In this document: piece after piece, positions 17,295-35,545 of the stretch
Layout: each line of letters opens with the position of its first letter
Numbering within the stretch: the stretch's first letter is position 1
Assembly: GCA_008933705.1 (NCBI GenBank)
Contig: WBUN01000018.1
Span: forward strand, 18,044-82,043
DNA length: 64,000 nt
Reading direction: 5' to 3'
Source of the DNA: Hyphomicrobiaceae bacterium
Lineage (GTDB): Bacteria > Pseudomonadota > Alphaproteobacteria > Rhizobiales > Hyphomicrobiaceae
Translations under genes and position numbers: made by a program
The notes under the pieces: generated by a model
The model's input: only the letters and a program-made list of their open reading frames with translations
Databases searched by the model: none
Told to the model about the DNA's origin: nothing

Positions 17295-17540
17295 ATGGCA
17301 CTGATGATCAACGAGGCATGCACAGCCTGCGACGCATGCGAGCCGGTGTGCCCAAACAAGGCGATCTCCGTCGGTGATCCCATTTATGTCATCGACCCTC
17401 TCAAATGCACCGAATGCGTGGGCGCCGAGGACGAGCCGCAATGCAAGCTGGTGTGCCCTGCCGAGTGCATCCTGCCGAACCCCGATTGGGTCGAAAGCAA
17501 GGAAGACCTGCTGGCCAAGTACGAGCAGCTACACGCCTGA
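17295..17540 (+). CDS. fdx: 2[4Fe-4S] ferredoxin (electron donor of benzoyl-CoA reductase)
   Basis: CTACDACEPVCPNKAI and CTECVGAEDEPQCKLVCPAECI; 81 aa directly after bcrD. Confidence 0.88.
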   Translation: MALMINEACTACDACEPVCPNKAISVGDPIYVIDPLKCTECVGAEDEPQCKLVCPAECILPNPDWVESKEDLLAKYEQLHA

Positions 17541-17547
17541 GGCGGCG

Positions 17548-18048
17548 ATGACCTTTGTGAACCGCATCAGTCAAGCGCTCCATGACGAGCATCTTGCCAC
17601 GATCGCGCTCATGGAGAGACTGGAGCAGCTGCTGGCCGCGCGCCGGCGCGGCCCGCCGGATGTCGGGGCCCCCGAGGTCGCGCGGCTTCTTTCCGACCTC
17701 TCCACCGGGGTAGCTGCCGAGGTCGACCGGCATTTCGACTTCGAGGAGAAGCAACTCTTCACGTACCTCGATGCTGCCGGAGACGACGCGATCGGCGCCC
17801 ACTTGGCGGACGAGCACGCCGCAATGCGGCCGATTTGCGCGCAGATTGCGCGGCTCGCGCGAGAGGCCGCCGCCGGAGGCTTCAACGACCGCAGTTGGGA
17901 GACGTTCCGGCAACTCGGCCTCGAGCTCTGCGAGCGCATGCTCGTGCACGTGCAAAAGGAAGAGATGGCGCTGCTGCCTCTGATCGAAGAGACGATGGAT
18001 GCCGACCTGGCAGCCCGCCTCTATGAGGAATACACGCAAAACGGATGA
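17548..18048 (+). CDS. hemerythrin HHE-domain protein
   Basis: LHDEHLATIALMERLE, EVDRHFDFEEKQLF, LADEHAAMRP, MLVHVQKEEMALLPLIEE. Confidence 0.75.
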   Translation: MTFVNRISQALHDEHLATIALMERLEQLLAARRRGPPDVGAPEVARLLSDLSTGVAAEVDRHFDFEEKQLFTYLDAAGDDAIGAHLADEHAAMRPICAQIARLAREAAAGGFNDRSWETFRQLGLELCERMLVHVQKEEMALLPLIEETMDADLAARLYEEYTQNG

Positions 18049-18057
18049 GGAAACCCA

Positions 18058-18549
18058 TTGGCTGCTGCTGCAAATACGGCCACGCGCACCGTTCGACGGC
18101 TTGGCATCGGTGATCTCGAGCGGGTCGTTGCCATCGACCGGGCCCACACCGGCCGATCGCGTCGTCATTTCTTCGAGAAGCGGATGACGGCGGCACAGGA
18201 GCGCCCCGCTGATTTCATTCACGTGGGCACGATGTGGGGTGATGCGTTGTGCGGATTCGCCATAGCCCGCATCCTGCGCGGCGAATTCGGGCGCGAGCAC
18301 GCAGTGGCGGTGCTGGACGCGCTCGGAGTCGAGCCGGAAACCCAGGAGTGCGGCATCGGCCATGCATTGATGGAAGAGCTCATCAAGGCCATGCGCGAAA
18401 TGGGCATACGCTCGCTGCAGTCGCAGGTGGACTGGGCGAACCAGGACCTTCTGCGGTTCCTGCAGGCGTCAGATTTCAAGATCGCCCCGCGGCTGGCGCT
18501 GGAACGCTCTGTGGTGGAGCGTCTCGACGAGACGATCGAGGACGTTTAA
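18058..18549 (+). CDS. GNAT-family acetyltransferase (paralogue 1; TTG start)
   Basis: DLERVVAIDRAHTGRSRRHFFEKR, LGVEPETQECGIGHALMEELI. Confidence 0.7.
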   Translation: MAAAANTATRTVRRLGIGDLERVVAIDRAHTGRSRRHFFEKRMTAAQERPADFIHVGTMWGDALCGFAIARILRGEFGREHAVAVLDALGVEPETQECGIGHALMEELIKAMREMGIRSLQSQVDWANQDLLRFLQASDFKIAPRLALERSVVERLDETIEDV

Positions 18550-18565
18550 GGCGGCGGAGGAGCAG

Positions 18566-19129
18566 ATGGCGCGACGCACGCATATCACCATACCCGAGCG
18601 CGTCGGCGAGGCAGCCGAGGTCAACTATGGCGAGCCCGCCGTGCCCGACTATGGCCCCTTGGCGCGCGACCGGATACCGACGCGCACGATCGCCGAACGC
18701 GATCTGCAGGCATTGATCACGATCGACCGCCGCATCACAGGGCGGGATCGGTCGGCCTATTTCGAAAGCAAGCTTGCCGAAGCGCTGCATGAGTCGGATG
18801 TGCGCGTTTCCCTGCTGGCAGAGCGGGATGGCGGGCCGGTCGGGTTCATCATGGCGCGTGTCGAGTTCGGCGAATTCGGGCGCGTCGAGCCGACCGCGGT
18901 CATCGACACAATCGGTGTGGATCCGGACTATCGGGACCAGGGCATCGGGCGGGCGCTCCTTTCCCAGCTTCTGGTCAACCTGACGACCCTGCGCGTGGAG
19001 CGCGTCCGTACGGAGGTCGATTGGCACGACGGGGATCTTCTCGCCTTCCTCGACCATTCGGGCTTTGAGCCCTCCCAACGGCTCTGTCTCATTCGTGCCG
19101 TGGACGGCGTGGCCGAACCGCCGGCCTGA
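18566..19129 (+). CDS. GNAT-family acetyltransferase (paralogue 2)
   Basis: DLQALITIDRRITGRDRSAYFESKL, IGVDPDYRDQGIGRALLSQLL. Confidence 0.75.
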   Translation: MARRTHITIPERVGEAAEVNYGEPAVPDYGPLARDRIPTRTIAERDLQALITIDRRITGRDRSAYFESKLAEALHESDVRVSLLAERDGGPVGFIMARVEFGEFGRVEPTAVIDTIGVDPDYRDQGIGRALLSQLLVNLTTLRVERVRTEVDWHDGDLLAFLDHSGFEPSQRLCLIRAVDGVAEPPA

Positions 19130-19142
19130 CAGGGCCACAGCC

Positions 19143-20423
19143 TTAGTGCGCGACCACGGCACGGCGTACGATGTCGGCGGTGAACCACGCGAATGCAGCA
19201 GCACCGACAAGCCCGGCTCCTGCGCTGATGCGGGCCGGCCATGCGACATCGAGCGCGATTGCTCCGATGAGCCCTGCCAACGCGAGGCCGTGACACACGG
19301 CGTGCACCTTCACCGGTCTCGACGCGGCGAGCTCGGACATCAGGGGGAGTGTGCCGCCAGCAGATCGCGGTGCGTGCATCGAAGCCAGGAACGGCAGAAT
19401 TCGCTGCAACACGCCGAGCAGAAAGGTCAACAGCCAGCCTCCGATGAGAAGGAATCCGAAGAGGGTAGGTCCGTTCGGTCCTGCGAGGCCATGGAGGGCG
19501 GCAAGACCGACGACGAGAGTTGCCGGCAGCATGATCCACGCGGTGCGGACGAGCAGAAAGGAAATGCCAAGCCGCTTGCGCATGCCGGTCTTGAGCACGT
19601 TGTGCATTTGCCACAGATGCGTTGCGGCGGCGCTGAGGCCGACCAGCCCTGCGCAGGTGAGGGCGAGTACGCTGCCGGCCAGCGCGCCGTACGTGCCGAG
19701 GGCGAGACCCGTGACTGCCAGGCCGTACTCGACGAATGCGACCTGGCGCGCCGGTGGCGCCGAGAGCGCGAACATCGGCACGAGGATGTGGCTGAAGCCA
19801 AGGGCAAAGAAGCCCATGAACCCGAAGCCGCCCAGGATCATGTGCGCGAGGGCTGCCGCCTGGTGATCGGGGAGCACTCCCAACGCATAGTCGAAGGAAA
19901 GGGCTAGCCCGAGGGCCGCGAGCAGGATGAGTGCGGCCAGCGACGTCCAGCTGTAGAGGGCGACGACGGGAAGGCTTGCGGCACTCTGCAGGTTCCCGGC
20001 AAGGAGGGCAGCGAACAGCAGCAAGCCGATGGTCGTCGGCGCGGCTGCGGATATGATGACGGGAACCTGTCCGGTCCACATGCCGAAACTCAGCATCGCC
20101 GTTCCCGGGACGGTAAGCCAAAAGACGAGCTTGATCGGCCATACGGCAGCGAGTGGGCGCCGCGTGGCGACTGGCAGGAGCTGCAACGAGGCGCCGATGG
20201 CGGTCGTCACCAGCACGCCCAGGGTCAACAAGTGGACCGCGCCGAGTGTTGTGGCCGGGCCTCCCCGAAAGCTTTTCGCTTCGGGAGCGTCGGCGAGAAG
20301 GACAGCCCACATGAGCACATGAAAGGCGGCGGCTGCTGCAAAGAAACGAAAGGGGACCGACGCCGGCAATAGACGGCCCTTGGCGCCTGATAGGAAGCTC
20401 GTCACCGGCGTTACGCGCTCCAA
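19143..20423 (-). CDS. polytopic membrane protein, NnrS/heme-copper-oxidase-like
   Basis: 426 aa, many hydrophobic helices with conserved-looking His (GAVHLLTLGVL, LAHMILGGFGFMGFFALGFSHILVPMFAL, HLWQMHNVLKTG). Confidence 0.55.
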   Translation of the reverse strand: MERVTPVTSFLSGAKGRLLPASVPFRFFAAAAAFHVLMWAVLLADAPEAKSFRGGPATTLGAVHLLTLGVLVTTAIGASLQLLPVATRRPLAAVWPIKLVFWLTVPGTAMLSFGMWTGQVPVIISAAAPTTIGLLLFAALLAGNLQSAASLPVVALYSWTSLAALILLAALGLALSFDYALGVLPDHQAAALAHMILGGFGFMGFFALGFSHILVPMFALSAPPARQVAFVEYGLAVTGLALGTYGALAGSVLALTCAGLVGLSAAATHLWQMHNVLKTGMRKRLGISFLLVRTAWIMLPATLVVGLAALHGLAGPNGPTLFGFLLIGGWLLTFLLGVLQRILPFLASMHAPRSAGGTLPLMSELAASRPVKVHAVCHGLALAGLIGAIALDVAWPARISAGAGLVGAAAFAWFTADIVRRAVVAH

Positions 20424-20695
20424 CGGACGATGCGGAGCAGCACCTCATCCGAGCAGTCCGCGTCGCACGTAGACGGAATGATCTCGTGAGACCAGCCCCG
20501 ATCGTCCAGCTCCGGGTAAAGAAAGATCGGCTCGCGATCGAGGTGAGCAATCAACGCCGACTGGGCCTCGCCGCTGTCGATCAATCGCAGGATCTCGATC
20601 ATCGGCTCGGGCGGCGGAAGCCCCCGGACATCCACGTGCAGCGCGTCGACGGTCTGCCAAATCCGTGAACCGTCCTGCGGCCTAGTACAACTCAT
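20411..20695 (-). CDS. DUF2249-domain protein
   Basis: VDVRGLPPPEPMIEILRLIDSGEAQSALIAHLDREPIFLYPELDDRGW; ATG complement at 20693-20695 within ORF 20411..20803. Confidence 0.65.
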   Translation of the reverse strand: MSCTRPQDGSRIWQTVDALHVDVRGLPPPEPMIEILRLIDSGEAQSALIAHLDREPIFLYPELDDRGWSHEIIPSTCDADCSDEVLLRIVRWSA

Positions 20696-20880
20696 GCGCC
20701 AGCCTCCATGCGGCTTCACCACAAGCAGCCAAATATCCGGAATTTCAGCGCCATTGCTTCGTGGTTGCCTATCTTCCTTCCCCGAAATCCAATAGAACGA
20801 CACGGACCGCGTGTCGTGGCAAGCGCCTGACCGGCGCGCTTGTGAACGACCAACCGGTGTCCAATCTCTCCAGTCGAGCT

Positions 20881-21396
20881 ATGCGCAAGCGACGACACAG
20901 CCCTCCTCCCGATTCACCACCCGAAGCCGCTCTGCAAGGCGATAGCTGGCAGGTTGTGCGCATCCGCGCCGGCGATGTCGCCGACGTCATACGATTGGAC
21001 CACCGTGTGACAGGCCTTGCCAAGCCCGACTACTGGCGTGACATGTTCGAGCGCTACGGCAGACGCAGACTTGGCGAGAGAATGTTCCTGGTCGCCAAGA
21101 CGGTCGGCCCTGGCACTCTGCCGGATGTCCTTGGCTTCATCGTGGGCGAAGTACGTGCTTGGGAATTCGGATCCGCCCCGTGTGGATGGGTACTTGCGTT
21201 GTCGGTCGAGCCGCAGGCGCGCCTGCGTGGCATAGGCAAGGCGCTCCTCGGCGCTCTGGCGGCCGAGTTCAAGAAAGCCGGCGTCAACAAGATGCGAACC
21301 ATGGTTGCCAGAGACAATCAGCTCCACCTGCTGTTCTTTCGCAGCGAGGAGATGATGGCTGGACCGTACATCGAGCTCGAGAAGGAACTCGACTGA
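20881..21396 (+). CDS. GNAT-family acetyltransferase (paralogue 3, BadL-like position next to Rrf2 regulator)
   Basis: DVADVIRLDHRVTGLAKPDYWRDMF, LSVEPQARLRGIGKALLGAL; start ATG 20881. Confidence 0.7.
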   Translation: MRKRRHSPPPDSPPEAALQGDSWQVVRIRAGDVADVIRLDHRVTGLAKPDYWRDMFERYGRRRLGERMFLVAKTVGPGTLPDVLGFIVGEVRAWEFGSAPCGWVLALSVEPQARLRGIGKALLGALAAEFKKAGVNKMRTMVARDNQLHLLFFRSEEMMAGPYIELEKELD

Positions 21397-21456
21397 TGAG
21401 CGAGACGTGCGGCGTCGAGGGAGGGTTGCCATGAACATTGGACGCGAATCGGTGCG

Positions 21457-21897
21457 ATGAAGCTGCACGTCTCGAGCCGGCTTGCCATCTTTGCTCTGCT
21501 GGAACTCGCCGCCCGCCCTGAGCAGCAGCTCTCGGTGGCGGAGATTGGTGAGAAGTACGGCGTGTCGAGCCATCACCTGGCGAAGGTTATGCACGTTCTG
21601 GGTCGCGCAGGCCTGGTGCGATCCGCACGCGGCGCGGGCGGAGGGTATCAATTCAGCGGCAATGCGCGGCGCATGACCCTGCTCGATGTGATCCTGCTGT
21701 TCGAGACCCTGGAATCGCAAAACCATGATCCTGCGGTCGGGGAATTGAGCGAGGAAGGGCACGCGCTACGCGAGGTTATGAGCGAAATCGACGATATTAT
21801 ACGGGCCACGCTCGGCTCGATCACCATTGCCACGCTGCACAAGCTGGTCAGGCGCCAGCGGGAGCGACGCCCGCGACGTACGGCAGCCGCTTCCTAG
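21457..21897 (+). CDS. Rrf2-family transcriptional regulator (BadM-like)
   Basis: MKLHVSSRLAIFALLELAARPEQQLSVAEIGEKYGVSSHHLAKVMHVLGRAGLVRSARGAGGGYQF; no cysteines in the 146-aa sequence. Confidence 0.8.
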   Translation: MKLHVSSRLAIFALLELAARPEQQLSVAEIGEKYGVSSHHLAKVMHVLGRAGLVRSARGAGGGYQFSGNARRMTLLDVILLFETLESQNHDPAVGELSEEGHALREVMSEIDDIIRATLGSITIATLHKLVRRQRERRPRRTAAAS

Positions 21898-21920
21898 CCG
21901 GATCAGCATTCGGGGCAAGG

Positions 21921-22712
21921 TCAAGGGACTGACGGCCTTGTAACCTCATCGATACCTGCAAGCTGGAAGAGGGCTTGCGGGTCCTCGATCGTCAATCTGC
22001 GTCCACGCACGGTCACGCCCCATCCCGCCAGGCGCGCAAGATCGCGCGAGAGCGTCTCTTTCGCCATTCCCAATCGCGAGGCGAGCACGGACTTGTCGTA
22101 GGGAAGCCTGATCTCGGCCGAGCTATCGGCCTTCATATGCATGGCGAGAACCCAAGCAACGAGCCGCTCGAAGCATGTTTTCGACCGCACGCTCTTTAGC
22201 TCGCGGAGCATATCCGACAGCCTCGAGGCCAAGCCTGTCGCAATGGCTTCGGCGAACTGGGGCTCGGCTCGGATGAGGCGAAGCGCTCGATCGGCAGGTA
22301 TGCGGCCAACGAACGAGGGCTGGACGGTACGCGCCGACGTCAGCACCGGAGCGCCTTCCAAGATGGCTTCCACCGGAAAGAAGGTCGGCGGCCGCAGGAT
22401 CGACACGGCTACACTTCGACCGTCGCTGCGCGTCGTCGAAAGCTCGACAAGGCCGTCGATGAGAAGGAACAGGTGCTCCGGCGCGCAGCCCTCCCGAAGC
22501 AGCTCGGTCTTAGCGCTGATGCGCGCCACGGACATGTGTGCAGCCAGCTTCTCAACCGCTCTTGAAGACAGCTCGGCGAGGATGGGAAGGCCGCGAAGAC
22601 GCTTGCGCTCGCACGCCTGCATCCGACTGCTCGCCATTTTGGCAGTGGGCGACTTGCGCCCTTTCACGCGCTGTGGGGGATCGACCCGGATACGGTCGCC
22701 TGCATCAGCCAT
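21921..22712 (-). CDS. Crp/Fnr-family transcriptional regulator
   Basis: cNMP-binding-like beta-roll and HTH LPYDKSVLASRLGMAKETLSRDLARL with E-xx-SR recognition motif; no FNR-type N-terminal Cys cluster. Confidence 0.8.
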   Translation of the reverse strand: MADAGDRIRVDPPQRVKGRKSPTAKMASSRMQACERKRLRGLPILAELSSRAVEKLAAHMSVARISAKTELLREGCAPEHLFLLIDGLVELSTTRSDGRSVAVSILRPPTFFPVEAILEGAPVLTSARTVQPSFVGRIPADRALRLIRAEPQFAEAIATGLASRLSDMLRELKSVRSKTCFERLVAWVLAMHMKADSSAEIRLPYDKSVLASRLGMAKETLSRDLARLAGWGVTVRGRRLTIEDPQALFQLAGIDEVTRPSVP

Positions 22713-22792: not shown

Positions 22793-22810
22793 CCTTGACC
22801 ATAGTCAAGG
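22793..22810. promoter_or_regulatory. Crp/Fnr-type box CCTTGACCATAGTCAAGG
   Basis: Perfect dyad TTGAC-N4-GTCAA about 60 bp upstream of the heme-copper oxidoreductase operon (ATG 22872). Confidence 0.65.
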
Positions 22811-22871: not shown

Positions 22872-23036
22872 ATGTCGAAAAACGAAGCATCATCGGATGC
22901 ACCGGAGAATATCCCCTTCATGCAGCGCGTGCTCGACAGTCCATTCCTGCTTCTCTTTCTCGGCGTGACCATCCCGACGGTGTTCTACACGCTGTGGGGA
23001 GTCATGGAAATCGCGTCGATACCCATCGCGAAATGA
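22872..23036 (+). CDS. small single-TM protein, putative accessory subunit of heme-copper oxidoreductase
   Basis: 54 aa MSKNEASSDAPENIPFMQRVLDSPFLLLFLGVTIPTVFYTLWGVMEIASIPIAK; upstream of subunit II. Confidence 0.6.
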   Translation: MSKNEASSDAPENIPFMQRVLDSPFLLLFLGVTIPTVFYTLWGVMEIASIPIAK

Positions 23037-23077: not shown

Positions 23078-23629
23078 ATGGCTGTCACACCGCCTGCACA
23101 ACGAAATTGGTGGAAGGAGCCAATCGAGCGTGTCGAGCTGATTTGGACCGTGCTCGCGTTTCTGTGGGGCATCGCGATGTTCGCCACCATGATCCTGTGG
23201 CACGTCGTCGGAAAGCAGAATCTCGCCAACGAAGCCTATCGAATCTCGCCCGACGTCTTCATGACAAGGACCGAGGCGTTTGCGAAGAAGTACAAGGTTC
23301 GCGAGGAGGGCAAGACGGGCGTGCCGGTCGTGCGCCCACCTGCGGGCGCTGACGTCTACATGCTGGGGCGGCTGTGGGAGTGGTGGCCCGTGCTGGAGCT
23401 GGAGAAGGGGCAAAGCTATCGCCTCCATCTCTCGTCCGTTGACTGGCAGCATGGCTTCTCGCTGCAGCCGATCAACGTCAACATCCAAGTTCATCCCGGA
23501 TACGAGCACATATTGACGATCACGCCCGATCAGTCCGGTCAGTACGGCATCGTCTGCAATGAATTCTGCGGGATCGGCCATCATCAGATGACCGGCAAGA
23601 TCCACGTCGTCGAACGCAAGCCGCAGTGA
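23078..23629 (+). CDS. heme-copper oxidoreductase subunit II with CuA site
   Basis: N-terminal TM helix; DWQHGFSL and CNEFCGIGHHQM (CxxxCxxxHxxM CuA motif). Confidence 0.85.
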   Translation: MAVTPPAQRNWWKEPIERVELIWTVLAFLWGIAMFATMILWHVVGKQNLANEAYRISPDVFMTRTEAFAKKYKVREEGKTGVPVVRPPAGADVYMLGRLWEWWPVLELEKGQSYRLHLSSVDWQHGFSLQPINVNIQVHPGYEHILTITPDQSGQYGIVCNEFCGIGHHQMTGKIHVVERKPQ

Positions 23630-23638
23630 GGGGGCGCC

Positions 23639-25372
23639 ATGACCACCGTTGATGTTGCAGCGGGCCAAGCCGTTGCAGGCCGCCAGGCGCAATTCCGCAG
23701 CTGCCCGTTTACCGGCTTGAGGGTCGATCTTGCGGCCCAGAAGCTCATCATCGCCAATGCGGTCGCCGCAGTGATATTCCTCGCCGTCGGTGGGCTGTTC
23801 GGCCTTCTGGTGGCGCTCACGCGATGGCCGGCCGTGCATCTCCTGCCGGCTGAGCTGTTCTACCTGGTCCTGACCGGGCACGGGGCGAACGTCTTGCTCT
23901 TCTGGATCATCTTCTTCGAGATCGCGGTCCTCTATTTCGCGTCGGCAGTCCTGCTCAACTCGCGCCTGGCGACGCCCAAGCTCGGCTGGCTGGCCTTCAT
24001 CCTGATGGTGGTCGGCGCCGTGATGGCCAACGTGGCGGTCTTGCAGGGCGACTCGACCGTCATGTTCACGTCCTATCCGCCGATGAAGGCGGCGCCGCAC
24101 TTCTATCTTGGCCTGATCCTCTTTGCGGTCGGCGCCCTGGTCGGTGTCGGCATCTTCTTCGCGACGCTCGTCATCGCCAAGGAGGAGCGCACCTACGAGG
24201 GCTCGATTCCGCTCGTCACGTTCGGTGCGCTCACCGCGGCGATCATCGCGGTCTACACCATCGCCTCCGGCGCCATAATCCTGATACCGACGTTCCTGTG
24301 GTCGGTCGGGCTTATCGGCACCATCGATCCTCTGATGTACAAGGTGGTGTGGTGGGGCATGGGGCACGCGTCACAGCAGATCAATGTGTCTGCCCACGTG
24401 GCGCTTTGGTATGCCATCGCCGCTCTGACCGTCGGCGCGCAGCCGCTGTCGGAGAAGGTGAGCCGCACCGCCTTCTTTCTCTACATTCTGTTCCTGCAGC
24501 TGGCCTCCGCGCACCATCTCCTGGTCGAGCCGGGCATCAGCTCCGAATGGAAGATCTTCAATACCAGCTACGCCATGTACCTCGCCGTGCTCGGCAGCAT
24601 GATCCACGGCCTGACCGTGCCCGGATCGATCGAGGCAGCACAGCGGCGCAACGGCTTCACCAAGGGCGCGTTCGAGTGGTTGCGCAAGGCGCCGTGGGGC
24701 AATCCGGCCTTTGCCGGCATGTTCCTTTCGCTGGTGATGTTCGGGTTCATCGGTGGAATCTCCGGGGTCGTGCTCGGTACCGAGCAGATCAATCTGCTCA
24801 TGCACAACACCCTCTACGTCCCCGGGCACTTCCACGGCACTGTCGTGGCCGGAACGACGCTGGCATTCATGGCGGCGACCTACCTGGTGCTGCCGCTCAT
24901 CTTCCAGCGCGAGGTGGCGTTCCCGAGGCTTGCAAAGATCCAGCCCTACCTGTTTGGCATCGGCGCAGCGGGCATCTCGCTGTTCATGATGGGTGCCGGC
25001 ACACTGGGCATTCCGCGCCGGCATTGGGACATGACGCTGGCCGACGCGTCGATGCCCTATGAGTTCTCCGCCGCCGCATTCCTCATGATGGGCTTGAACG
25101 GCGTATTTGCGGTTCTCGCGGCGCTCGGAGGGATCATCTACATCGTGGTCGTCGTCGCCTCCGCGCTCGGCGGAAAGAAGGTCGATGCCTCCCGTCCGGC
25201 GTGGCAGTTCCCGGTGACGAGTGCGGCAGGTGCGAACGTAGCGAAGTATGGGAGCCATGGGACGGTCAAGCTGCCAGGCACGATCATCCTGGTGGGCGTC
25301 TTCTTCGTCGCCTTCATGCTCTACTACTACGTGAACTGGAAGTATCTCTCGGCGGTCTGGCCGCTCCGCTGA
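23639..25372 (+). CDS. heme-copper oxidoreductase catalytic subunit (COX1/B-family-like; possible sNOR-type NO reductase)
   Basis: 577 aa; His ligands TGHGANVLLFW, WWGMGHASQQINVSAHV, ASAHHLLVEPG, YVPGHFHGTVVAG; no Tyr at canonical helix VI (H+4) position. Confidence 0.8.
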   Translation: MTTVDVAAGQAVAGRQAQFRSCPFTGLRVDLAAQKLIIANAVAAVIFLAVGGLFGLLVALTRWPAVHLLPAELFYLVLTGHGANVLLFWIIFFEIAVLYFASAVLLNSRLATPKLGWLAFILMVVGAVMANVAVLQGDSTVMFTSYPPMKAAPHFYLGLILFAVGALVGVGIFFATLVIAKEERTYEGSIPLVTFGALTAAIIAVYTIASGAIILIPTFLWSVGLIGTIDPLMYKVVWWGMGHASQQINVSAHVALWYAIAALTVGAQPLSEKVSRTAFFLYILFLQLASAHHLLVEPGISSEWKIFNTSYAMYLAVLGSMIHGLTVPGSIEAAQRRNGFTKGAFEWLRKAPWGNPAFAGMFLSLVMFGFIGGISGVVLGTEQINLLMHNTLYVPGHFHGTVVAGTTLAFMAATYLVLPLIFQREVAFPRLAKIQPYLFGIGAAGISLFMMGAGTLGIPRRHWDMTLADASMPYEFSAAAFLMMGLNGVFAVLAALGGIIYIVVVVASALGGKKVDASRPAWQFPVTSAAGANVAKYGSHGTVKLPGTIILVGVFFVAFMLYYYVNWKYLSAVWPLR

Positions 25373-25427: not shown

Positions 25428-26291
25428 ATGCTTGCACGGCTCAGTCAGGTCGCCTCCCTCCTGAAGCTGCGAATCGGCGTGGCGATTGCGGCGAGTGCTC
25501 TTGCCGGCATGGCAGCGGCCAACGGGCCAGCACCGTCGGGGGCGCAGGTGCTTGCGTTTGCTCTGGCGGTGCTCGGTGGTGCGGGCGCAGCAGGTGCCTT
25601 CAACCACTACTACGAGCGCGATCTCGATGTTCGCATGAAGCGCACGCATCAACGCCCGTTTGCGAGCGGCACCCTTGATGGCAGCCGCTGGTGGCTTGCG
25701 TCCTTCGCGGTCTTGCTGGCTGCGTCGCTGGCATTGGCAGCGGCCAGCGGCGGCCTGGTGGCAGCGCTCTATGTCTTCCTCGGGGCCTTCACCTACGGCG
25801 TCGTCTATACGGTATGGCTCAAGCGCCGGACGGTTTGGAACATCGTCGTGGGCGGGCTCGCAGGCAGCTTTGCCGTGCTCGCCGGCGCTGCGGTGGTCGA
25901 TCCCGCGCCGCAAGTTGTCCCTGCCCTGCTTGCCGTGGTGCTCTTCCTCTGGACGCCGCCGCATTTCTGGAGCCTGGCGGCGGCGCGACGGGACGACTAT
26001 GCGGCCGCGGCCGTACCCATGCTTCCGGTCACCGCGCCGGAGCGGACTTGGACCCTGGCCATCCTGCTGCACACAGCAGCGCTGGTCGCGCTGTCTCTGG
26101 TTCCGCTGGGCTTCGGTCTTGGTCTGATCTATGGCGTCGCCGCCGCGGTCGGTGGCGGCTACTTCCTGTGGCGCACCTGGCTGCTCTACCGTGCGCCAAG
26201 CCGCGGCACGGCGATGGCCAGCTTCGCGGCCTCGCTGATCCAGCTCCTGCTGCTGGTCTTCGGCGTTGTCGCCGATGCCTTCATCGGATGA
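25428..26291 (+). CDS. ctaB: protoheme IX farnesyltransferase (heme O synthase)
   Basis: UbiA family NHYYERDLDVRMKRTHQRPFASG; between COX subunits and SCO. Confidence 0.88.
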   Translation: MLARLSQVASLLKLRIGVAIAASALAGMAAANGPAPSGAQVLAFALAVLGGAGAAGAFNHYYERDLDVRMKRTHQRPFASGTLDGSRWWLASFAVLLAASLALAAASGGLVAALYVFLGAFTYGVVYTVWLKRRTVWNIVVGGLAGSFAVLAGAAVVDPAPQVVPALLAVVLFLWTPPHFWSLAAARRDDYAAAAVPMLPVTAPERTWTLAILLHTAALVALSLVPLGFGLGLIYGVAAAVGGGYFLWRTWLLYRAPSRGTAMASFAASLIQLLLLVFGVVADAFIG

Positions 26292-27121
26292 GCCACTGCA
26301 TGCGGCGATATCTTGCGACAGCGCTACTCTCCGTTGTTCTTGGCATGACAACATCGATGGCGGCCGCGCATCGCCCCGCGGACGATCTGTCGCGCGCACC
26401 AGTCCTCGACCAGGGCCGGGCGCTGGAGATCAGCCAGAACGCCATTGGCCGTCCCGTCGGCGAATATCGATTCATCGATGCGAAGGGTGCACGCGTCGAC
26501 ATCGGCGAGCTGCGCGGCAAGCCCGTGGTGATCAGCCTCATCTACACGAGCTGCAGCCACGTGTGTCCCATGATTACGCAAAGGCTGCGCCAGGCCGTGG
26601 AGGAGGCGCAGCGGGTGATCGGGGCCGATCGGTTCACGGTGATCACGGTCGGTTTCGACACGCGCAACGATACGCCCATGCGCATGGCGGCCTTTGCACG
26701 CGCGCAAGGCGTGGATCTGCCGAACTGGAGGTTCCTCAGCGGTGACGAGGCGGCGGTGTCCGCATTGGCCAAGAGCATCGGCTTCACCTATGCCCCTGCC
26801 GCCGGCGGCTATCTGCATGTCTCGCAGGTGTCCATCGTCGACCGGGATGGTCGTGTCTACCGCCAGGTCTATGGCGACGACTTCCCCATTCAGGTGTTCA
26901 TGGAGCCTCTGAAAGAGGCCGTGTATGGCACGATCGGAACGCTCGGCAGCGTGAACGCCCTGTTCGACCGTGTGCGATTCCTATGCACGGTCTATGATCC
27001 GAACCAGGGGCGCTACCGCATCAGCTATGCGATTGTCATGAGTCTGCTCGCAGGTGTCATCTCTCTGGGCGCCACGGCTGTCGTCATCACCCGTGCATGG
27101 CTCAACAGTCGGCACGCATGA
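26288..27121 (+). CDS. SCO1/SenC-family copper chaperone with C-terminal TM helix
   Basis: VVISLIYTSCSHVCPMITQRL (CxxxCP), GYLHVSQVSIVDRDG; ATGA overlap with ctaB. Confidence 0.82.
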   Translation: MSHCMRRYLATALLSVVLGMTTSMAAAHRPADDLSRAPVLDQGRALEISQNAIGRPVGEYRFIDAKGARVDIGELRGKPVVISLIYTSCSHVCPMITQRLRQAVEEAQRVIGADRFTVITVGFDTRNDTPMRMAAFARAQGVDLPNWRFLSGDEAAVSALAKSIGFTYAPAAGGYLHVSQVSIVDRDGRVYRQVYGDDFPIQVFMEPLKEAVYGTIGTLGSVNALFDRVRFLCTVYDPNQGRYRISYAIVMSLLAGVISLGATAVVITRAWLNSRHA

Positions 27122-28743
27122 TGGCTCCTACTGGCGATCCCAGCAAGCGAAACAGCCGGGCGCGCTCCGCGCTTCGCGCGACCATCGAGTACCTCGAGCG
27201 AGGGGCCGATCGCGTCTTCGGACCGAATCTGAACCCATTCGCGCATCTTGGAGCGCTCGGCTTCTTTCTGTTCTGGATCGTTGCCGTCAGCGGCATCTAT
27301 CTTTTCATCTTCTTCGATACCGGCGTCGTCGATGCCTACGACTCGGTGGAGGCGATCACGCACGCGCAGTGGTTCGCTGGCGGCGTCATGCGCAGCTTTC
27401 ACCGCTACGCCTCGGACCTGATGGTCGTGGTGCTTGTGGTGCACGTCGCGCGTGAATTCGCACTCGATCGCTATCGCGGAGCGCGGTGGTTCTCGTGGAT
27501 CACCGGCGTGCCGATCATCTGGATGCTGTACGCCTCGGGCATCACCGGCTACTGGCTGGTCTGGGACAAGCTTGCTCAATACGTTGCAATCGTCAGCTCT
27601 GAGCTGCTCGACTGGTTGCCGATCTTCGGCGAGCCGATCGCGCGGAACTTTCTCGCACCGGGCAGCCTGAGCGATCGCTTCTTCACGCTGCTCGTGTTCA
27701 TGCACATTGCCATCCCGCTGATACTTCTGTTCATCATGTGGGTGCACATCCTGCGCATCTCGCGGCCGAAAGTTAACCCGCCGCGGGCGTTGGCGATCAT
27801 CGTGCTTCTCGGCCTTGTCGTAGTGTCGCTGTGGAAGCCTGCGCTGAGCCAGGGTCCTGCCGACCTCTCCAAGGTGCCCAACGGGGTCGGCTTGGACTGG
27901 TTCTACCTGCCGCTCTATCCGCTCGTCGATCTGTGGTCGCGAGGTGCGGTCTGGGCCCTGCTCGGCGGCTTCACGCTCATGCTGATCATCCTGCCGTGGC
28001 TGCCGCCGTTTCGCCGAGCCAGGCCCGCAGTGGTGGATCTGGCGTATTGCAACGGCTGTGCACGCTGCGTCGAGGACTGTCCCTATGAGGCAGTCAGGCT
28101 CGTACCGCGGACCGATGGGCGTCCGTTCGACCAGCAGGTGCAGGTCAACGCATCGCTGTGCGTAAGCTGCGGCGTTTGCGTAGGGGCCTGCCCATCTTCA
28201 ACGCCGTTCCGGCGCACGACCGATCTCAAGACCGGCATCGATTTGCCGGACTTGCCTTTGCAGACCCTGAGGGAGCGCACCGAAGAGGCCGCCGCCGGTC
28301 TGTCTGGGCAGGAGCGTGTGCTGATCTTCGCGTGTGCGCACGGCGCGGGATCGGGCCGACGGCAAGGTACGGTGGAGGTTCCCTGCGTCGCGATGGTTCC
28401 GCCTTCCCTCATCGACTACGCCATCAGCCGCAATCTTGCCGACGGCGTGGTGGTCGCCGGTTGCGCCGAGCGCGCCTGCTACAATCGCCTTGGGGTTGCC
28501 TGGAGCGAGCAGCGCTTCGCCCGTCAGCGCAATCCGTACCTGCGGGCGAGGGTGCCACGGGAACGGCTGGCTACCATCTGGGCATCGCCGACCGAGAAAG
28601 GCCGCTTCGCGCATGAACTGGCAGCGTTTGCGAGCGCGGTCGCCTCCCTTCCGCCAAGCCAACGCTCACCGGAGGCGCCGCCAGAGGATGCAGCTGTTGA
28701 GGCTACTGCCGCGGACGACACACCGGAGGAGCTCGTGCCATGA
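27118..28743 (+). CDS. cytochrome b (N-terminal type) - 2[4Fe-4S] ferredoxin - MvhD-like fusion protein
   Basis: Two H-x13-H pairs (SFHRYASDLMVVVLVVH; MHIAIPLILLFIMWVH), CNGCARCVEDCPYEA and CVSCGVCVGACPSS, C-term FACAHG...VPC...VAGCAERACYNRLG. Confidence 0.75.
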   Translation: MMAPTGDPSKRNSRARSALRATIEYLERGADRVFGPNLNPFAHLGALGFFLFWIVAVSGIYLFIFFDTGVVDAYDSVEAITHAQWFAGGVMRSFHRYASDLMVVVLVVHVAREFALDRYRGARWFSWITGVPIIWMLYASGITGYWLVWDKLAQYVAIVSSELLDWLPIFGEPIARNFLAPGSLSDRFFTLLVFMHIAIPLILLFIMWVHILRISRPKVNPPRALAIIVLLGLVVVSLWKPALSQGPADLSKVPNGVGLDWFYLPLYPLVDLWSRGAVWALLGGFTLMLIILPWLPPFRRARPAVVDLAYCNGCARCVEDCPYEAVRLVPRTDGRPFDQQVQVNASLCVSCGVCVGACPSSTPFRRTTDLKTGIDLPDLPLQTLRERTEEAAAGLSGQERVLIFACAHGAGSGRRQGTVEVPCVAMVPPSLIDYAISRNLADGVVVAGCAERACYNRLGVAWSEQRFARQRNPYLRARVPRERLATIWASPTEKGRFAHELAAFASAVASLPPSQRSPEAPPEDAAVEATAADDTPEELVP

Positions 28744-29243
28744 CGGCGTGGGCTCGCATCGCTGGTCAGCTCGGGGTGACGATCGCCCTCATGGCGGCGG
28801 TGGCCCAGCTCAGTGACTGGCCACGCTATCACCAGATCGCGGCAAATACCGCGATCATAAGGCTGAGCTTCACGCATGGGTCCAACAGGCAGGCCGAATG
28901 CCGCAGGCGGACGCCCGAGGAGCTGGCAAAACTGCCGCCGAACATGCGCAAGCCGTTGGAGTGCCCGCGCAGGCGCGGTGCGGTATACGTCGAGTTCGAC
29001 CTGGATGGCCAGACGGTCTACCGCGCGTCGCTGCCACCTTCCGGCATTTCGGGCGACGGGCCGGCGCGGGCCTACCAGCGATTTGTCGTGCCCGCCGGAC
29101 CTCATGCCATTGCCATGCGCATGCGTGACACGCCGCGAACCGAAGGCTTCGACTACGTCAAGTCAAGCGACGTCGTTCTCGCCGCCGACGCCAATCTGGT
29201 CATCGACTTCAGCACCGACGCTCAAGGCTTCGTCATTCGCTGA
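28740..29243 (+). CDS. hypothetical membrane-anchored protein, translationally coupled to cytochrome b fusion
   Basis: 167 aa, N-terminal hydrophobic helix; ATGA overlap. Confidence 0.55.
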   Translation: MTAWARIAGQLGVTIALMAAVAQLSDWPRYHQIAANTAIIRLSFTHGSNRQAECRRRTPEELAKLPPNMRKPLECPRRRGAVYVEFDLDGQTVYRASLPPSGISGDGPARAYQRFVVPAGPHAIAMRMRDTPRTEGFDYVKSSDVVLAADANLVIDFSTDAQGFVIR

Positions 29244-29268: not shown

Positions 29269-29670
29269 GTGAAGCTTCTGCACTGGAAGGAAGAGTACAG
29301 CATCGGGATCCAGGGCGTCGATCATGAGCACAGGGAGCTGATCGACCTCATTAACCACCTTCACGAAGAGCTGGATCGGCCGGGTTCGAAGTTGACGGTT
29401 CCCGCCTTCTTTGGAGATCTGCTCAAGGGCATCTCGGCGCACTTCGCGCTCGAGGAAAAGTGCATGCGCGATCACGATTATGACCGGTTGGATCTGCACA
29501 AGAGCGATCACGAGCGCCTGCTGGACGAGCTCCGCGAGATGATGGACGCCTTCGAGCATGCGGAGGACGTGGATCGTGTGGACCTGGCACGGCGTCTGGA
29601 TACTTGGTTCTCGCGGCATTTCAGGACGCATGATGCCGAGCTCCACCGGATGCTCGGGAACTCACACTAA
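29269..29670 (+). CDS. bacteriohemerythrin
   Basis: GTG start; IGIQGVDHEHRELIDLINHLHEEL, HFALEEKCMRDHDYDRLDLHKSDHERLLDEL, HFRTHDAELHRML. Confidence 0.88.
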   Translation: MKLLHWKEEYSIGIQGVDHEHRELIDLINHLHEELDRPGSKLTVPAFFGDLLKGISAHFALEEKCMRDHDYDRLDLHKSDHERLLDELREMMDAFEHAEDVDRVDLARRLDTWFSRHFRTHDAELHRMLGNSH

Positions 29671-31575: not shown

Positions 31576-32559
31576 TCATGCCTCTTTGGCGGCGGACAGG
31601 GATGCCACCAGCCGACAGGCCAATGCCGCGGCCGCCAGGCGACGGTAGTGGGCGGATGCAATGGTGGTACGCATCGGTTGCACCTGTTTCTGCACGAGCC
31701 GGTCGAGCTGCTGCAGAACCTTCTCATCGACGGGACGGCCGGCGATGGCGTCGGTTCCCGCGAGAAGAAACGGACGGGAATTGGTGCCGGTCAGGCCGAT
31801 GTTCAGCGACTGAATGACGCCATTGGCAGCCGCGAGAGCGACCGCGACACCAGCCAAGGGAAAATCGATGGCGCCGCGCACGCGCACCTTGGCATAGGAT
31901 GATGGTGGCGGGTTCGGCGGCAGCACGACGGCGACAATCAGCTCGTCCGGAGCAAGCGTCAGGTGCGCGCTGCCATCCTCGACGTAGAGATCACCAACGG
32001 GAATGCGCCGGCAGCCGGAGGCGCCGGCGATCTCGACCTCAGCACGAAGCGCCAGGAATGCCGGTGCGAGATCGCCGGCAAAGGCCGCATGGCAGCGGCG
32101 ACCCTGCGGGGCGACGTGACAGGTATCGCCGCCGTGCTTCAGGCAGAAGCCGTTGGCGCGCCGCCACCATTCGCTTTGGTTGTAGTAGATGCAGCGGGTG
32201 TCGAGGCAAAGGTTGCCCCCAACCGTTCCCATCAGGCGATGGCCGGGGCCAGCGATCGCTTCGGCCGCTTCCTTGACGGCACGATAGTTCTGCGAAGTCG
32301 CGGCATCCCGGGTGAGCGCCGCGATGCTTACCATGCTGCCGATGCGGATCCCGTGATCGCTCGCTCGAATTTCGGCCAGCTCCCGGATGCCCGAGAGGTC
32401 GATGAGCAGGCTCGACTTGCCGAGGCCGTGCCGCGCGTTGACGATCAGATCGGTTCCGCCGGCGATGAACCTGCTGCCGGCGTTCTCCTGGCTGGTTGCG
32501 ATCGCGTCGCTCACACTGCGTGGATGGGCAAGCCGGAATTGCGGCAGCAGCGCAGTCAT
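31576..32559 (-). CDS. hcrB: 4-hydroxybenzoyl-CoA reductase beta (FAD) subunit
   Basis: CO-dehydrogenase flavoprotein family with extra Cys loop CLDTRCIYYNQSEWWRRANGFCLKHGGDTCHVAPQGRRCHAAF typical of HcrB. Confidence 0.88.
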   Translation of the reverse strand: MTALLPQFRLAHPRSVSDAIATSQENAGSRFIAGGTDLIVNARHGLGKSSLLIDLSGIRELAEIRASDHGIRIGSMVSIAALTRDAATSQNYRAVKEAAEAIAGPGHRLMGTVGGNLCLDTRCIYYNQSEWWRRANGFCLKHGGDTCHVAPQGRRCHAAFAGDLAPAFLALRAEVEIAGASGCRRIPVGDLYVEDGSAHLTLAPDELIVAVVLPPNPPPSSYAKVRVRGAIDFPLAGVAVALAAANGVIQSLNIGLTGTNSRPFLLAGTDAIAGRPVDEKVLQQLDRLVQKQVQPMRTTIASAHYRRLAAAALACRLVASLSAAKEA

Positions 32560-34886
32560 GACGCAGCCCTCCTGGCGGCCGCGAGCCGCAGACCGCGCCG
32601 GCGCTCGACCAGCGCCTCCACGACGCGATCGGGCGTCACGGGAAGGGCGTTGAGATCGATGCCGATGGCGTTGGCCACGGCGTTGACCAAGGCCGGCGGA
32701 AAGCCTGCGAGCGCGCCCTCGCTTGCCTCCTTGGCGCCGAATGGTCCGTTCGGATCGTTGCTCTCCACGATGTGGACTTCAATGGGCGGGGACTCGGCCG
32801 CGGTCGGCACACGGTATTCGAGCAGGCTCGCGTGCAGCGGCAGCCCATCCGCATATGTCGTTTCCTCGCTCAGCGCCTGGCCCATGCCCATCCATACCGA
32901 GCCCTCGATCTGTCCTTCGACGGCGAGCGGATTGATGGCGTGGCCGCAGTCCAGAGCGGCCCATACCTTGTCGACGGTTACAAGTCCGGTCGCCTCGTCG
33001 ACGGTGACCTCGACGACCTGGGCGGCATAGCTGAAACCCATGGTCGAGCCCACGGCACCGCCGCGGTGCTTGCCGCCTTGCGCTTCGGGCGGGCACGTGA
33101 ACGTTCCTGTCACCGTGATCGGTCCCCGGTTTACAAGTGCTGCTTTCGCAACATCGCAGAACGCAATGCTCGACTGGCCGCCACCCCCGACATGAAACGC
33201 CTCGCCGATGCAGTCGACGTCCTCGGGGGGCACCTCCAGCTTTTGGGCGGCCGCCTCGCAAAGGATTGTCCTGAGCCTCCTGGCGGCGTCGATCGCTGCG
33301 TTGCCGACCATGAACGTGATGCGCGAAGAATAGGCGCCATTGTCCTTGGGGGTTACCGCGCTGTCGCCGGCGATCACACGCACACGATCGAGCGATACGC
33401 CAAGCGTTTCGGCAACGGCGATCGCCACCATCGTCGAGGAGCCCTGGCCGATGTCGGCCGCCCCGGTCAGTGCCGTGACGCCGCCGTCGAAGTCGAGCCG
33501 GACATTGACGACCGCGTGCGGCTCGCCGGTCCAATGGATCGGTTTTGCCGCGCCGCTGACGTAGTGTGAGCAGGCCATGCCGAGGCCTTTGCCCCGCGGC
33601 AGCTTGCCGATGCGGTTGTGCCAATTGCTGGCCGCTTCGACTTTGTCGAGGCATTCTGCAAGACCGTAGCTGTTGACCATGAGGTCGTTCAGCGTGCGCG
33701 TCGGTGCGTGCAGGAGATTGGCGCGGCGGACCGCGAAGGGGTCGAGCAACAGCTCGCGGGCCATGCGGTCCAGGAGGCATTCAAAGGCGTGGCGCGTGTT
33801 GACGCCGCCGTGACCGCGCATCGCACCGCATGGCGGGAGATTGGCATAGACCCGATAACCGTCGTACTTGATGGCTGGAATGTCGTAGAGGCCCTGGAGC
33901 AATGCTCCGGCGTAAAGCAGGGTGACGATGCCGTAGCCGGCGTAGGCGCCGCCACGCTGCACCACATGGAGCTCGCAGGCGGTGATGCGGCCGTCCCGCC
34001 GCATGCCGAGCTTCAGCCTCATGTCGGTCTGAGGTCTGGCGCGATGCGTGAGAAAGTTCTCTTCGCGCGTCAGATGCATCCTCACCTTGCCCGGGGCGAC
34101 ACGGGCGAGAAGCGCCGTGATGATCTCGAAATTCAACACCTCGACGCGCGCACCAAATCCGCCGCCGACGAAGGGCTTCACCACGCGAATGCGCGAAGCG
34201 TCGATCTCAAGACACCGCGCGAGCATCAGGTGCAGGTAGTAGCCGACTTGCGATACGCTCTGCACCGTCAGCCGCCCGGTCAGGGGATCGAAATCGGCGA
34301 GGCAGGCATGGGGCTCGATCTGTGCGTGATTGACCTCGGCGCAGGTGATCGTTGCCTCGCGCACGAGATCGGCTTCGGAGAACCCCCGGTCCACGTCGCC
34401 AAACCCGTGGTGAACCTCTCGCTCGATATTGCCCGGCTTGTTCTCGTGCAGCAGAACGGCGCCGTCTGCGCGGGCGTCCTCCGACGTGTAGTACGCAGGG
34501 AGTGCGCGCACCTCGAGCTCGATGAGGCCGAGCGCCTTCTCGGCGGTCTCCAAATCCGTCGCTGCAACGGCGGCGACGGGTTCGCCGCGATAGCGCACGC
34601 GCCCGCGTGCCAGCGGGTATTCGTTCATGGCAATGGGCAGGACACCGTATGTATGAGGACAATCGTCGCCGGTTATGACGGCCCTGACGCCCTCGAGCGC
34701 GAGCGCCTTCGAGACATCGAGGCGAACGATCTCGCCGTGGCTGACCGGACTGCGAAGAATGCGACCGACAAGGGCATCGGCATGCTCCAGGTCGGCGGTG
34801 TATCGCGCGCGCCCCGTCACCTTATCGATGCCGTCGATCAGCGGGACGCCCTGGCGCCTGGCCTTGCCGTCGAGCTTGATCGTCAT
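32556..34886 (-). CDS. hcrA: 4-hydroxybenzoyl-CoA reductase alpha (molybdenum) subunit
   Basis: Xanthine-oxidase family (KVTGRARYTADLEHADALVGRILRSPVSHGEI, VKPFVGGGFGARVE); start ATG complement 34884-34886. Confidence 0.88.
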   Translation of the reverse strand: MTIKLDGKARRQGVPLIDGIDKVTGRARYTADLEHADALVGRILRSPVSHGEIVRLDVSKALALEGVRAVITGDDCPHTYGVLPIAMNEYPLARGRVRYRGEPVAAVAATDLETAEKALGLIELEVRALPAYYTSEDARADGAVLLHENKPGNIEREVHHGFGDVDRGFSEADLVREATITCAEVNHAQIEPHACLADFDPLTGRLTVQSVSQVGYYLHLMLARCLEIDASRIRVVKPFVGGGFGARVEVLNFEIITALLARVAPGKVRMHLTREENFLTHRARPQTDMRLKLGMRRDGRITACELHVVQRGGAYAGYGIVTLLYAGALLQGLYDIPAIKYDGYRVYANLPPCGAMRGHGGVNTRHAFECLLDRMARELLLDPFAVRRANLLHAPTRTLNDLMVNSYGLAECLDKVEAASNWHNRIGKLPRGKGLGMACSHYVSGAAKPIHWTGEPHAVVNVRLDFDGGVTALTGAADIGQGSSTMVAIAVAETLGVSLDRVRVIAGDSAVTPKDNGAYSSRITFMVGNAAIDAARRLRTILCEAAAQKLEVPPEDVDCIGEAFHVGGGGQSSIAFCDVAKAALVNRGPITVTGTFTCPPEAQGGKHRGGAVGSTMGFSYAAQVVEVTVDEATGLVTVDKVWAALDCGHAINPLAVEGQIEGSVWMGMGQALSEETTYADGLPLHASLLEYRVPTAAESPPIEVHIVESNDPNGPFGAKEASEGALAGFPPALVNAVANAIGIDLNALPVTPDRVVEALVERRRGLRLAAARRAAS

Positions 34887-35374
34887 GACGGCATCTCGGC
34901 GGCCGTCTTCACCGACTCGACGATCTTCACGTAGCCGGTGCAGCGGCAAAGGTTGCCCGACAGGGCTGTGCGGATCTCCCCGTCGGTGGGATTGGGATTG
35001 CGGCGCAGGAGGGCCTCTGCCGCCATGATCATGCCGGGTGTGCAGAAGCCGCATTGCGCACCGAGCTTCTCGTGGAAGGCCTGCTGCAGCCGACTGGGAC
35101 GTCCCTGGCTGAGCAGGCCTTCGACGGTCTCAACCGCGCGCCCTTCGCACCGTACGGCGAGCACCATGCAGGAAGGCACAGCCTCACCGTCGATCAGCAC
35201 GGTGCAAGCCCCGCACTCCCCGCCGTCGCAGCCGGTCTTAACGCCGGTCAGCCGCGCAACCTCGCGCAAATAGTCGACGAGCAATTCATTCTGGCCGACG
35301 GCATCCTCGCGCCAGCGCCCGTTGACTTTCAGCCTGACGAGCCGCTTTGCCGATCGCTCACTCTCAATATGCAT
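34883..35374 (-). CDS. hcrC: 4-hydroxybenzoyl-CoA reductase gamma (2Fe-2S) subunit
   Basis: GCDGGECGACTVLIDGEAVPSC and CGFCTPGMIM...GNLCRCTGYVKI. Confidence 0.88.
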   Translation of the reverse strand: MHIESERSAKRLVRLKVNGRWREDAVGQNELLVDYLREVARLTGVKTGCDGGECGACTVLIDGEAVPSCMVLAVRCEGRAVETVEGLLSQGRPSRLQQAFHEKLGAQCGFCTPGMIMAAEALLRRNPNPTDGEIRTALSGNLCRCTGYVKIVESVKTAAEMPS

Positions 35375-35545
35375 GGGGGGGCCTGTCATATCCGGGCCGG
35401 CGGAAACAGCGTTCGCCGTGCAACGGTGACAGGTGCCCCATCCCGGCAAGGGCCGCCATGATCGAAATCAAGTCAGCCCAGCCGACAAATGGCATGGTCG
35501 ATGGGTGGCCTAACCAAAATCAAGGACGGGGCTTCCACTCGCCCA

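Follow-up and report, generated by a model that had tools for sequence, protein, structure and literature searches.

A gene at positions 27118-28743 (+ strand) of the window, the 64,000-nucleotide stretch of Hyphomicrobiaceae DNA analysed here, encodes a fusion of a diheme cytochrome b, a 2[4Fe-4S] ferredoxin and an FlpD-like domain, and in the proteobacteria sampled this fusion almost always accompanies the nitric oxide reductase eNOR. We propose, with a probability of about 0.5, that the fusion and the small membrane-anchored protein encoded next to it (here SMALL) form a module dedicated to feeding electrons into eNOR from the cytosolic side, in which electrons from a cytosolic reductant would pass through FlpD, the two [4Fe-4S] clusters, heme bH and heme bL to the p-side and on to NO. 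eNOR was recognized as an NO reductase only recently and is usually annotated, wrongly, as an oxygen reductase; how its proteobacterial form receives electrons has yet to be settled in the literature that we searched.

The open reading frame of the fusion specifies 541 amino acids, or 548 if an alternative in-frame ATG at 27097 is used. Its N-terminal part (residues ~34-301; 27217-28020, + strand) was assigned to bc1/b6-type diheme cytochrome b by Pfam (Cytochrome_B, residues 34-214, 77.7 bits, above the gathering cut-off), NCBIfam and Foldseek, and contains two H-x13-H pairs of heme ligands, H95/H109 and H196/H210, which are invariant in an alignment of 45 relatives. Several Fer4 dicluster models of Pfam matched residues 304-361 above their gathering cut-offs, defining a putatively cytosolic 2[4Fe-4S] ferredoxin domain (residues ~304-361; 28027-28200, + strand) whose eight cysteines (311, 314, 317 and 321; 348, 351, 354 and 358) are invariant in 45 of 45 sequences. 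The FlpD/MvhD-like domain follows (residues 406-512; 28333-28653, + strand). It was recognized by the Pfam FlpD model (PF02662; residues 418-511, 45.1 bits versus a cut-off of 22.3), by a phmmer search that had MvhD chains among its matches, and by likeness to the tail of HdrA2. Cysteines 406, 423, 449 and 454 of this domain are invariant (45/45). It lacks a complete N-terminal part, as the match covers profile positions 30-122 and leaves 1-29 unmatched, and in its CxxC motif the first cysteine is kept and the second lost, residue 409 being Gly, Ala or Ser in the 45-row alignment. The preliminary description of this DNA had reported the 541-residue frame with its histidine pairs, the two 4Fe-4S motifs and an MvhD-like C-terminus; each of these features stands, including the FlpD similarity on which it had made its reading of the C-terminus depend. 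The start/stop overlap with the SCO gene that it described is also real: the ATG at 27118-27120 and the TGA at 27119-27121 share an ATGA, and a second ATGA joins the end of the fusion gene to the start of SMALL at 28740.

The fusion gene is the sixth of eight in a cassette of conserved order, encoding a single-TM peptide, a CuA subunit, eNOR, CtaB, SCO, the fusion, SMALL (one TM helix and a beta-sandwich) and a hemerythrin. All lie on the + strand in the window. Subunit II of the heme-copper enzyme (HCO; 23078-23629, Pfam COX2) carries the CuA site, with H125, C160, E162, C164, H168 and M171 conserved in 65 rows, and precedes subunit I at 23639-25372 (Pfam COX1, 221 bits). CtaB/CyoE heme O synthase (25428-26291) scored 242 bits with TIGR01473, above the cut-off, and the SCO1/SenC copper chaperone (26300-27121, with a start at 26288 or 26300) scored 61.9 bits with Pfam SCO1-SenC. 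The cassette closes with a bacteriohemerythrin gene (29269-29670, start approximate; NF033749, 95.1 bits, above the cut-off), the position of which is conserved in most loci.

In subunit I, a glutamine (Gln247 in the motif GHASQQIN) occupies the position of the catalytic tyrosine, and the heme and CuB histidines are kept. Glutamine was found at this position in 70 of 70 aligned relatives, versus tyrosine in six plasmid-borne B-family oxidases and in the ba3 oxidase of Thermus thermophilus, which is the closest solved structure. In an HCO tree built from sequences other than the named eNOR references, the Gln forms made up one clade, split from the Tyr forms with 100/100 support. Glutamine in place of the catalytic tyrosine is a published mark of eNOR (PMC8756737, Table A4), a biochemically characterized NO reductase related to B-family oxidases (PMC11388526). 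The name replaces that of the ba3-a1 type, which is reported to receive electrons from cytochrome c (PMC8879329); a Tyr-less ba3-a1 enzyme has also been described (PMC6431628). Because glutamine replaces the catalytic tyrosine throughout, the sequence marks the cassette HCO as an eNOR-type (ba3-a1) NO reductase derived from the B family, and we rejected an O2 reductase operon on the same grounds. The cassette shares with published eNOR/ba3-a1 systems (Murali et al. 2024, as cited in PMC11388526 and PMC12569097; PMC8879329; PMC8756737) this glutamine, a CuA subunit II, kinship to the B family and an SCO gene in the operon. Besides eNOR, the window genome encodes two aa3-type and one cbb3-type HCO. 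Since it contains a nirS cluster and a COX1 search of this genome gave no other NOR-like match, the cassette HCO is most likely its NO reductase. Thus, the absence of the tyrosine, already noticed in the preliminary description, is borne out, and its context is now denitrification rather than O2 respiration.

To define the association of the fusion with eNOR, we scanned GTDB species genomes, which gave 118 confirmed relatives of the fusion, and examined the loci of 80 of these. A Gln-type HCO gene preceded the fusion by a few kb, with gene order conserved, in 70 of the 80 loci; the remaining 10 contigs end before that point. Culturable carriers of the fusion include Roseovarius, Mesorhizobium sp. 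Root552 and Bradyrhizobium. An evenly drawn sample of 399 Pseudomonadota genomes contained eNOR in 31, the fusion in 34 and both in 30 (Fisher p ~1e-39, a value that ignores relatedness and so overstates the case). Matches to the fusion were bimodal, being either full-length with E < 1e-90 or ordinary cytochrome b that matched residues 36-222 only. In the sole genome with eNOR and no fusion, the contig ends right after SCO. The preliminary description had considered that the protein might occur independently of such operons everywhere; instead, 30 of the 34 carriers have the HCO, and the four exceptions come from a contig end (G121) or from incomplete or fragmented assemblies. Three genomes (G065, G085 and G045) carry the fusion and SMALL together, apart from the eNOR core of the same genome. 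These split operons and the 70 intact loci exclude chance co-location of the fusion and eNOR.

A plasmid of T. thermophilus encodes the single-TM peptide, CuA and Gln-HCO proteins, with nirS 3 kb away, and a plasmid of Thermomicrobium roseum encodes the same three proteins; on both plasmids, which were the replicons searched, the fusion is absent. The fusion is therefore either an add-on of the proteobacterial eNOR branch or has been lost elsewhere. A search of plasmids gave one full relative of the fusion, in Defluviimonas.

An AlphaFold2 model of the fusion, built from the 45-row alignment, had a mean pLDDT of 82 and a pTM of 0.78, and its best Foldseek matches were the cytochromes b of bc1 and b6f complexes. 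NCBIfam placed an ExtQ-like segment after an ExtP-like cytochrome b, a layout resembling b6 plus subunit IV. ExtP, from the b-type cytochrome of a selenite/tellurite operon, was the best match; the scores lie far below the family cut-offs (110 versus 290 bits for ExtP and 29 versus 150 for ExtQ). The cytochrome b part has six TM helices. From these six helices, the charge pattern, the bc1-like fold and homology to cytochrome b, we infer that the N-terminus and the Fe-S tail, which follows TM6, should be cytosolic, that H109/H210 should bind heme bH on the tail side and that the ef-loop should be periplasmic. In this loop, D260 and W261 are invariant (45 rows) within an xDWFYL motif where bc1 has PEWY, and the pair resembles this quinol site of bc1. 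The region that matches the cd1 helix of bc1 is altered (GYWLVWDKLAQ). At the position that visual alignment assigns to the heme cn cysteine of cytochrome b6, only 3 of 45 rows have cysteine, and an identity as cytochrome b6 with heme cn was rejected on this basis. The fusion thus has in common with bc1/b6f cytochrome b and with ExtP-ExtQ of Geobacter, a bc-like system with the Rieske protein ExtO (PMC5877670), its fold, the two H-x13-H pairs and the subunit-IV-like segment. It differs from them in its predicted cytosolic Fe-S tail, in having DWFY rather than PEWY and in its partners, as no Rieske protein, cytochrome c or c1 was found by Pfam in the window cassette or in the conserved gene set of the relatives.

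The tail of the fusion, by sequence, is closest to the C-terminus of HdrA2 and not to free MvhD: residues 304-514 match HdrA2 571-774, the C-terminal Fer4-FlpD part, in one stretch (NCBIfam, 64.6 bits). The four FlpD cysteines are shared with the HdrA2 tail and with the MvhD/FlpD [2Fe-2S] protein of Hdr complexes (PMC12054007). In contrast to these proteins, the fusion has no HdrA flavin domain, has lost the second CxxC cysteine and is joined to a membrane cytochrome b. A second FlpD of the window genome lies in an HdrA-FlpD/HdrA/HdrB cluster that is Qmo- or Hdr-like, and similar FlpD frames of 736-822 amino acids occur in many, not all, fusion carriers. An Hdr partner for the fusion is unlikely as a rule because HdrA relatives were not found in four carriers, namely G366, G093, G402 and G400, the last a complete chromosome. 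Accordingly, we set aside a hydrogenase/Hdr link as a general partnership, and the tie of MvhD to hydrogenase and heterodisulfide reductase that had been drawn on previously is left unsupported.

A paralogue in the eNOR locus of three genomes (L128/G366; Gallionella L078, which is L167/G402; and L166/G399) has the same cytochrome b, followed by plant-type [2Fe-2S], FAD and NAD(P)H domains in place of Fer4-FlpD. This form lies at 8640-10631 in L128 and at 6863-8767 in L166. It retains the DWFYL motif. Its tail is closest to MmoC (204 bits) and BenC (188 bits), below the family cut-offs of 500 and 430. The tail thus resembles the NADH reductases of oxygenases, from which the paralogue differs in that the tail is joined to a diheme cytochrome b within an NO reductase operon. 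A full-length form was present in 1 of the 399 genomes. Since the three paralogues form one clade (100/96 support) nested among the FlpD forms in a midpoint-rooted tree, the change of tail looks like a single exchange event. Reductases of the MmoC/BenC type are usually NADH-oxidizing donors, which pass electrons to one-electron carriers and normally do not accept them. Because such reductases hand NADH electrons on to one-electron carriers, the exchange argues that the cytosolic tail of the fusion is a point of electron entry. This evidence, which comes from outside the window, is the strongest indication of direction. The paralogue occurs beside the FlpD form and not instead of it, so the two may differ in role.

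According to the proposed mechanism, a cytosolic flavoprotein, probably NADH-linked, would donate electrons to FlpD. They would then cross the two [4Fe-4S] clusters of the tail, which would lie in the cytoplasm adjoining heme bH, and pass from heme bH to heme bL. Exit would take place on the p-side, either directly to the CuA subunit or via a quinone at the site marked by D260-W261. From CuA, electrons would reach the low-spin heme and the heme/CuB site that contains Gln247, and there 2 NO + 2e- + 2H+ would yield N2O + H2O. A narrower version of this proposal, which we advance only tentatively, holds that the cytochrome b carries NADH- or ferredoxin-linked reducing power, taken up through FlpD or through the fused NAD(P)H reductase, straight to CuA of the HCO NO reductase and so by-passes the quinone pool, bc1 and cytochrome c. 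The membrane electron conduit envisaged in the preliminary description holds up, in the form of a cytochrome b core that has its Fe-S clusters on the predicted cytosolic side and is bound to one operon type; the donor, the role of quinone and the direction of flow are put forward here as proposals. Several observations sit uneasily with an input module. The cassette has no gene for a donor dehydrogenase, and HdrA is missing from several carriers. In addition, Thermus and Thermomicrobium have eNOR cores that lack the fusion, and cytochrome c is a reported donor (PMC8879329), which means that eNOR chemistry does not depend on the module.

The likeness of D260-W261 to PEWY also fits quinol oxidation and electron flow in reverse, which is the substance of the main rival. 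There, bc1-like quinol oxidation without a Rieske protein would take place at D260-W261. One electron would pass to CuA of eNOR, and the second would travel over bL, bH and the Fe-S tail to an acceptor of low potential in the cytosol; by this bifurcation, NO reduction would drive reverse electron transfer. The bc1 fold, the invariance of both residues and the retention of DWFYL in the paralogues are consistent with this scheme, CuA is the cassette's sole high-potential site on the p-side, and FlpD-like proteins can connect membranes to bifurcating Hdr complexes (PMC9430772). However, the altered cd1 helix region weighs against it, as does a cassette that encodes neither a Rieske protein nor cytochrome c1. 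So does the paralogue, as MmoC/BenC-type reductases would normally be donors and not acceptors, and we consider the scheme unlikely.

A second alternative keeps the cytosolic tail as the entry point and changes the exit: the fusion would be a non-pumping NAD(P)H- or ferredoxin-linked quinone reductase, in which the cytochrome b feeds the quinone pool and eNOR is supplied via bc1 and cytochrome c. This would suit the cytosolic Fe-S tail, the reductase swap and the cytochrome c donor reported for eNOR (PMC8879329), but it leaves unexplained why the fusion accompanies eNOR and no other oxidase, and why it is constantly paired with SMALL; we judge it quite unlikely. A role in assembly or regulation instead of respiration, such as donating electrons for CuA maturation together with SCO or sensing NO or redox state, appears highly improbable. 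The neighboring SCO and CtaB are assembly factors, the gene is translationally coupled to SCO and a hemerythrin closes the cassette, yet two b hemes, two [4Fe-4S] sites and FlpD, all with invariant ligands, go far beyond assembly needs, and the Thermus eNOR locus has none of the fusion's redox chain.

eNOR itself is known; the probable electron route from the cytosol to eNOR through the fusion is not described in the literature searched. A full-text search for the cytochrome b-Fer4-FlpD architecture, which covered literature other than the primary eNOR paper, returned a single listing, RME88945.1, an appendix table entry for an open reading frame with 'C1' cytochrome c, cytochrome b6, DMSOR-beta-like Fe-S and FlpD domains (PMC8756737). 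This protein has the domain set of the fusion but adds the C1 cytochrome c, and PMC8756737 draws no link to eNOR. The published eNOR accounts that we searched name subunits I and II and SCO and do not include the fusion, SMALL or the single-TM peptide; the primary PNAS 2024 paper, which may mention them, was outside this search. If the proposed route is correct, reductant in the cytosol can feed NO reduction directly, and the energetics assigned to such denitrifiers would change. As a genomic marker for eNOR, the fusion would then also far surpass the HCO subunit on its own. The naturally occurring exchange of FlpD-Fer4 for an NAD(P)H reductase offers a direct test of electron input.

SMALL (28740-29243, + strand; 167 amino acids) consists, in an AlphaFold2 model with a pLDDT of 94.8, of an N-terminal TM helix and a periplasmic Ig-like beta-sandwich. 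Its cysteines C54 and C75 are invariant; it has no cofactor motif and matched no Pfam or NCBIfam family. Foldseek gave weak matches of Ig-like or carbohydrate-binding type and no Rieske or cupredoxin, and a role as a substitute for either was rejected, given an Ig-like sandwich with weak, unspecific matches only. SMALL stays beside the fusion where the eNOR core lies elsewhere and, from the model, most plausibly serves the cytochrome b as a structural subunit at the periplasmic face. It might hold the cytochrome b against eNOR or help to form the p-side site, and nothing about it suggests a redox carrier.

SMALL was one of three features that the preliminary description had missed. Another is the first gene of the cassette (22872-23036, + strand), which encodes TMS, the 54-residue single-TM peptide; its position is conserved in 65 rows, and it also adjoins CuA-HCO genes in Thermus and Thermomicrobium. 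The third, which adds to the evidence for an NO context, is an FNR/FixK/DNR-type box upstream of the operon at 22795-22808, TTGACcataGTCAA, which has the form TTGA-N6-TCAA. This motif occurred in the 300 bp that precede the first gene in 38 of 64 relatives, as compared to 3.2% of background windows.

Paralogues of the cytochrome b-ferredoxin (Fer4)-FlpD fusion stand in tandem in a single lineage, at the loci L118, L120, L122 and L129 (family f38). These are two old copies that have been maintained adjacent to each other, and all Cys and His ligands are present in both of the tandem pairs that were fully read (L118 and L122). A further paralogue, with its tail exchanged, is a cytochrome b fused to a [2Fe-2S]-FAD-NAD(P)H reductase, and was found within loci of the heme-copper NO reductase eNOR (L128:8637-10631, minus strand; L078:3690-5672, plus strand; L166:6863-8767, minus strand). 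In the window genome, the sole FlpD besides the fusion is an HdrA-FlpD (781-aa frame), encoded with HdrA-like and HdrB-like (CCG) proteins in an Hdr- or Qmo-like cluster at L134 (C20:80000-97000), which radical SAM and FAD protein genes adjoin.

Downstream of the gene for SMALL, the protein with a TM helix and periplasmic beta-sandwich encoded directly after the fusion, we observed a second, very divergent heme-copper-like protein at L078:6193-7602, L118:466-1911 (minus strand) and L166:15383-16924. None of the three has the CuB His pair or a match in NCBIfam, and two contain a GGHVLQF motif.

Upstream of the NO reductase operon, in window 17374-22712, an Rrf2 regulator that lacks Cys and a divergent Crp/Fnr regulator are encoded along with GNAT acetyltransferases, DUF2249 and a hemerythrin-like ORF. 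A 425-aa multi-TM protein (19143-20423) appeared NnrS-like by eye; neither Pfam nor NCBIfam gave a match to it. Genes for anaerobic aromatic degradation also adjoin the operon: those for 4-hydroxybenzoyl-CoA reductase (31576-35449, minus strand), whose beta and gamma subunits exceed the NCBIfam cut-offs, and an adjoining acyl-CoA/benzoate-CoA ligase-like gene (35559).

The NO source in the window genome is presumed to be a row of consecutive cytochrome d1-type proteins (C118:1485-9698), comprising NirS, a NirF-like protein and a third frame. On the Thermus thermophilus plasmid pTF24b (L085), the eNOR core is annotated as "ba3-type oxidase"; nirS lies approximately 3 kb from it, and immediately downstream of it is an Rrf2 regulator.
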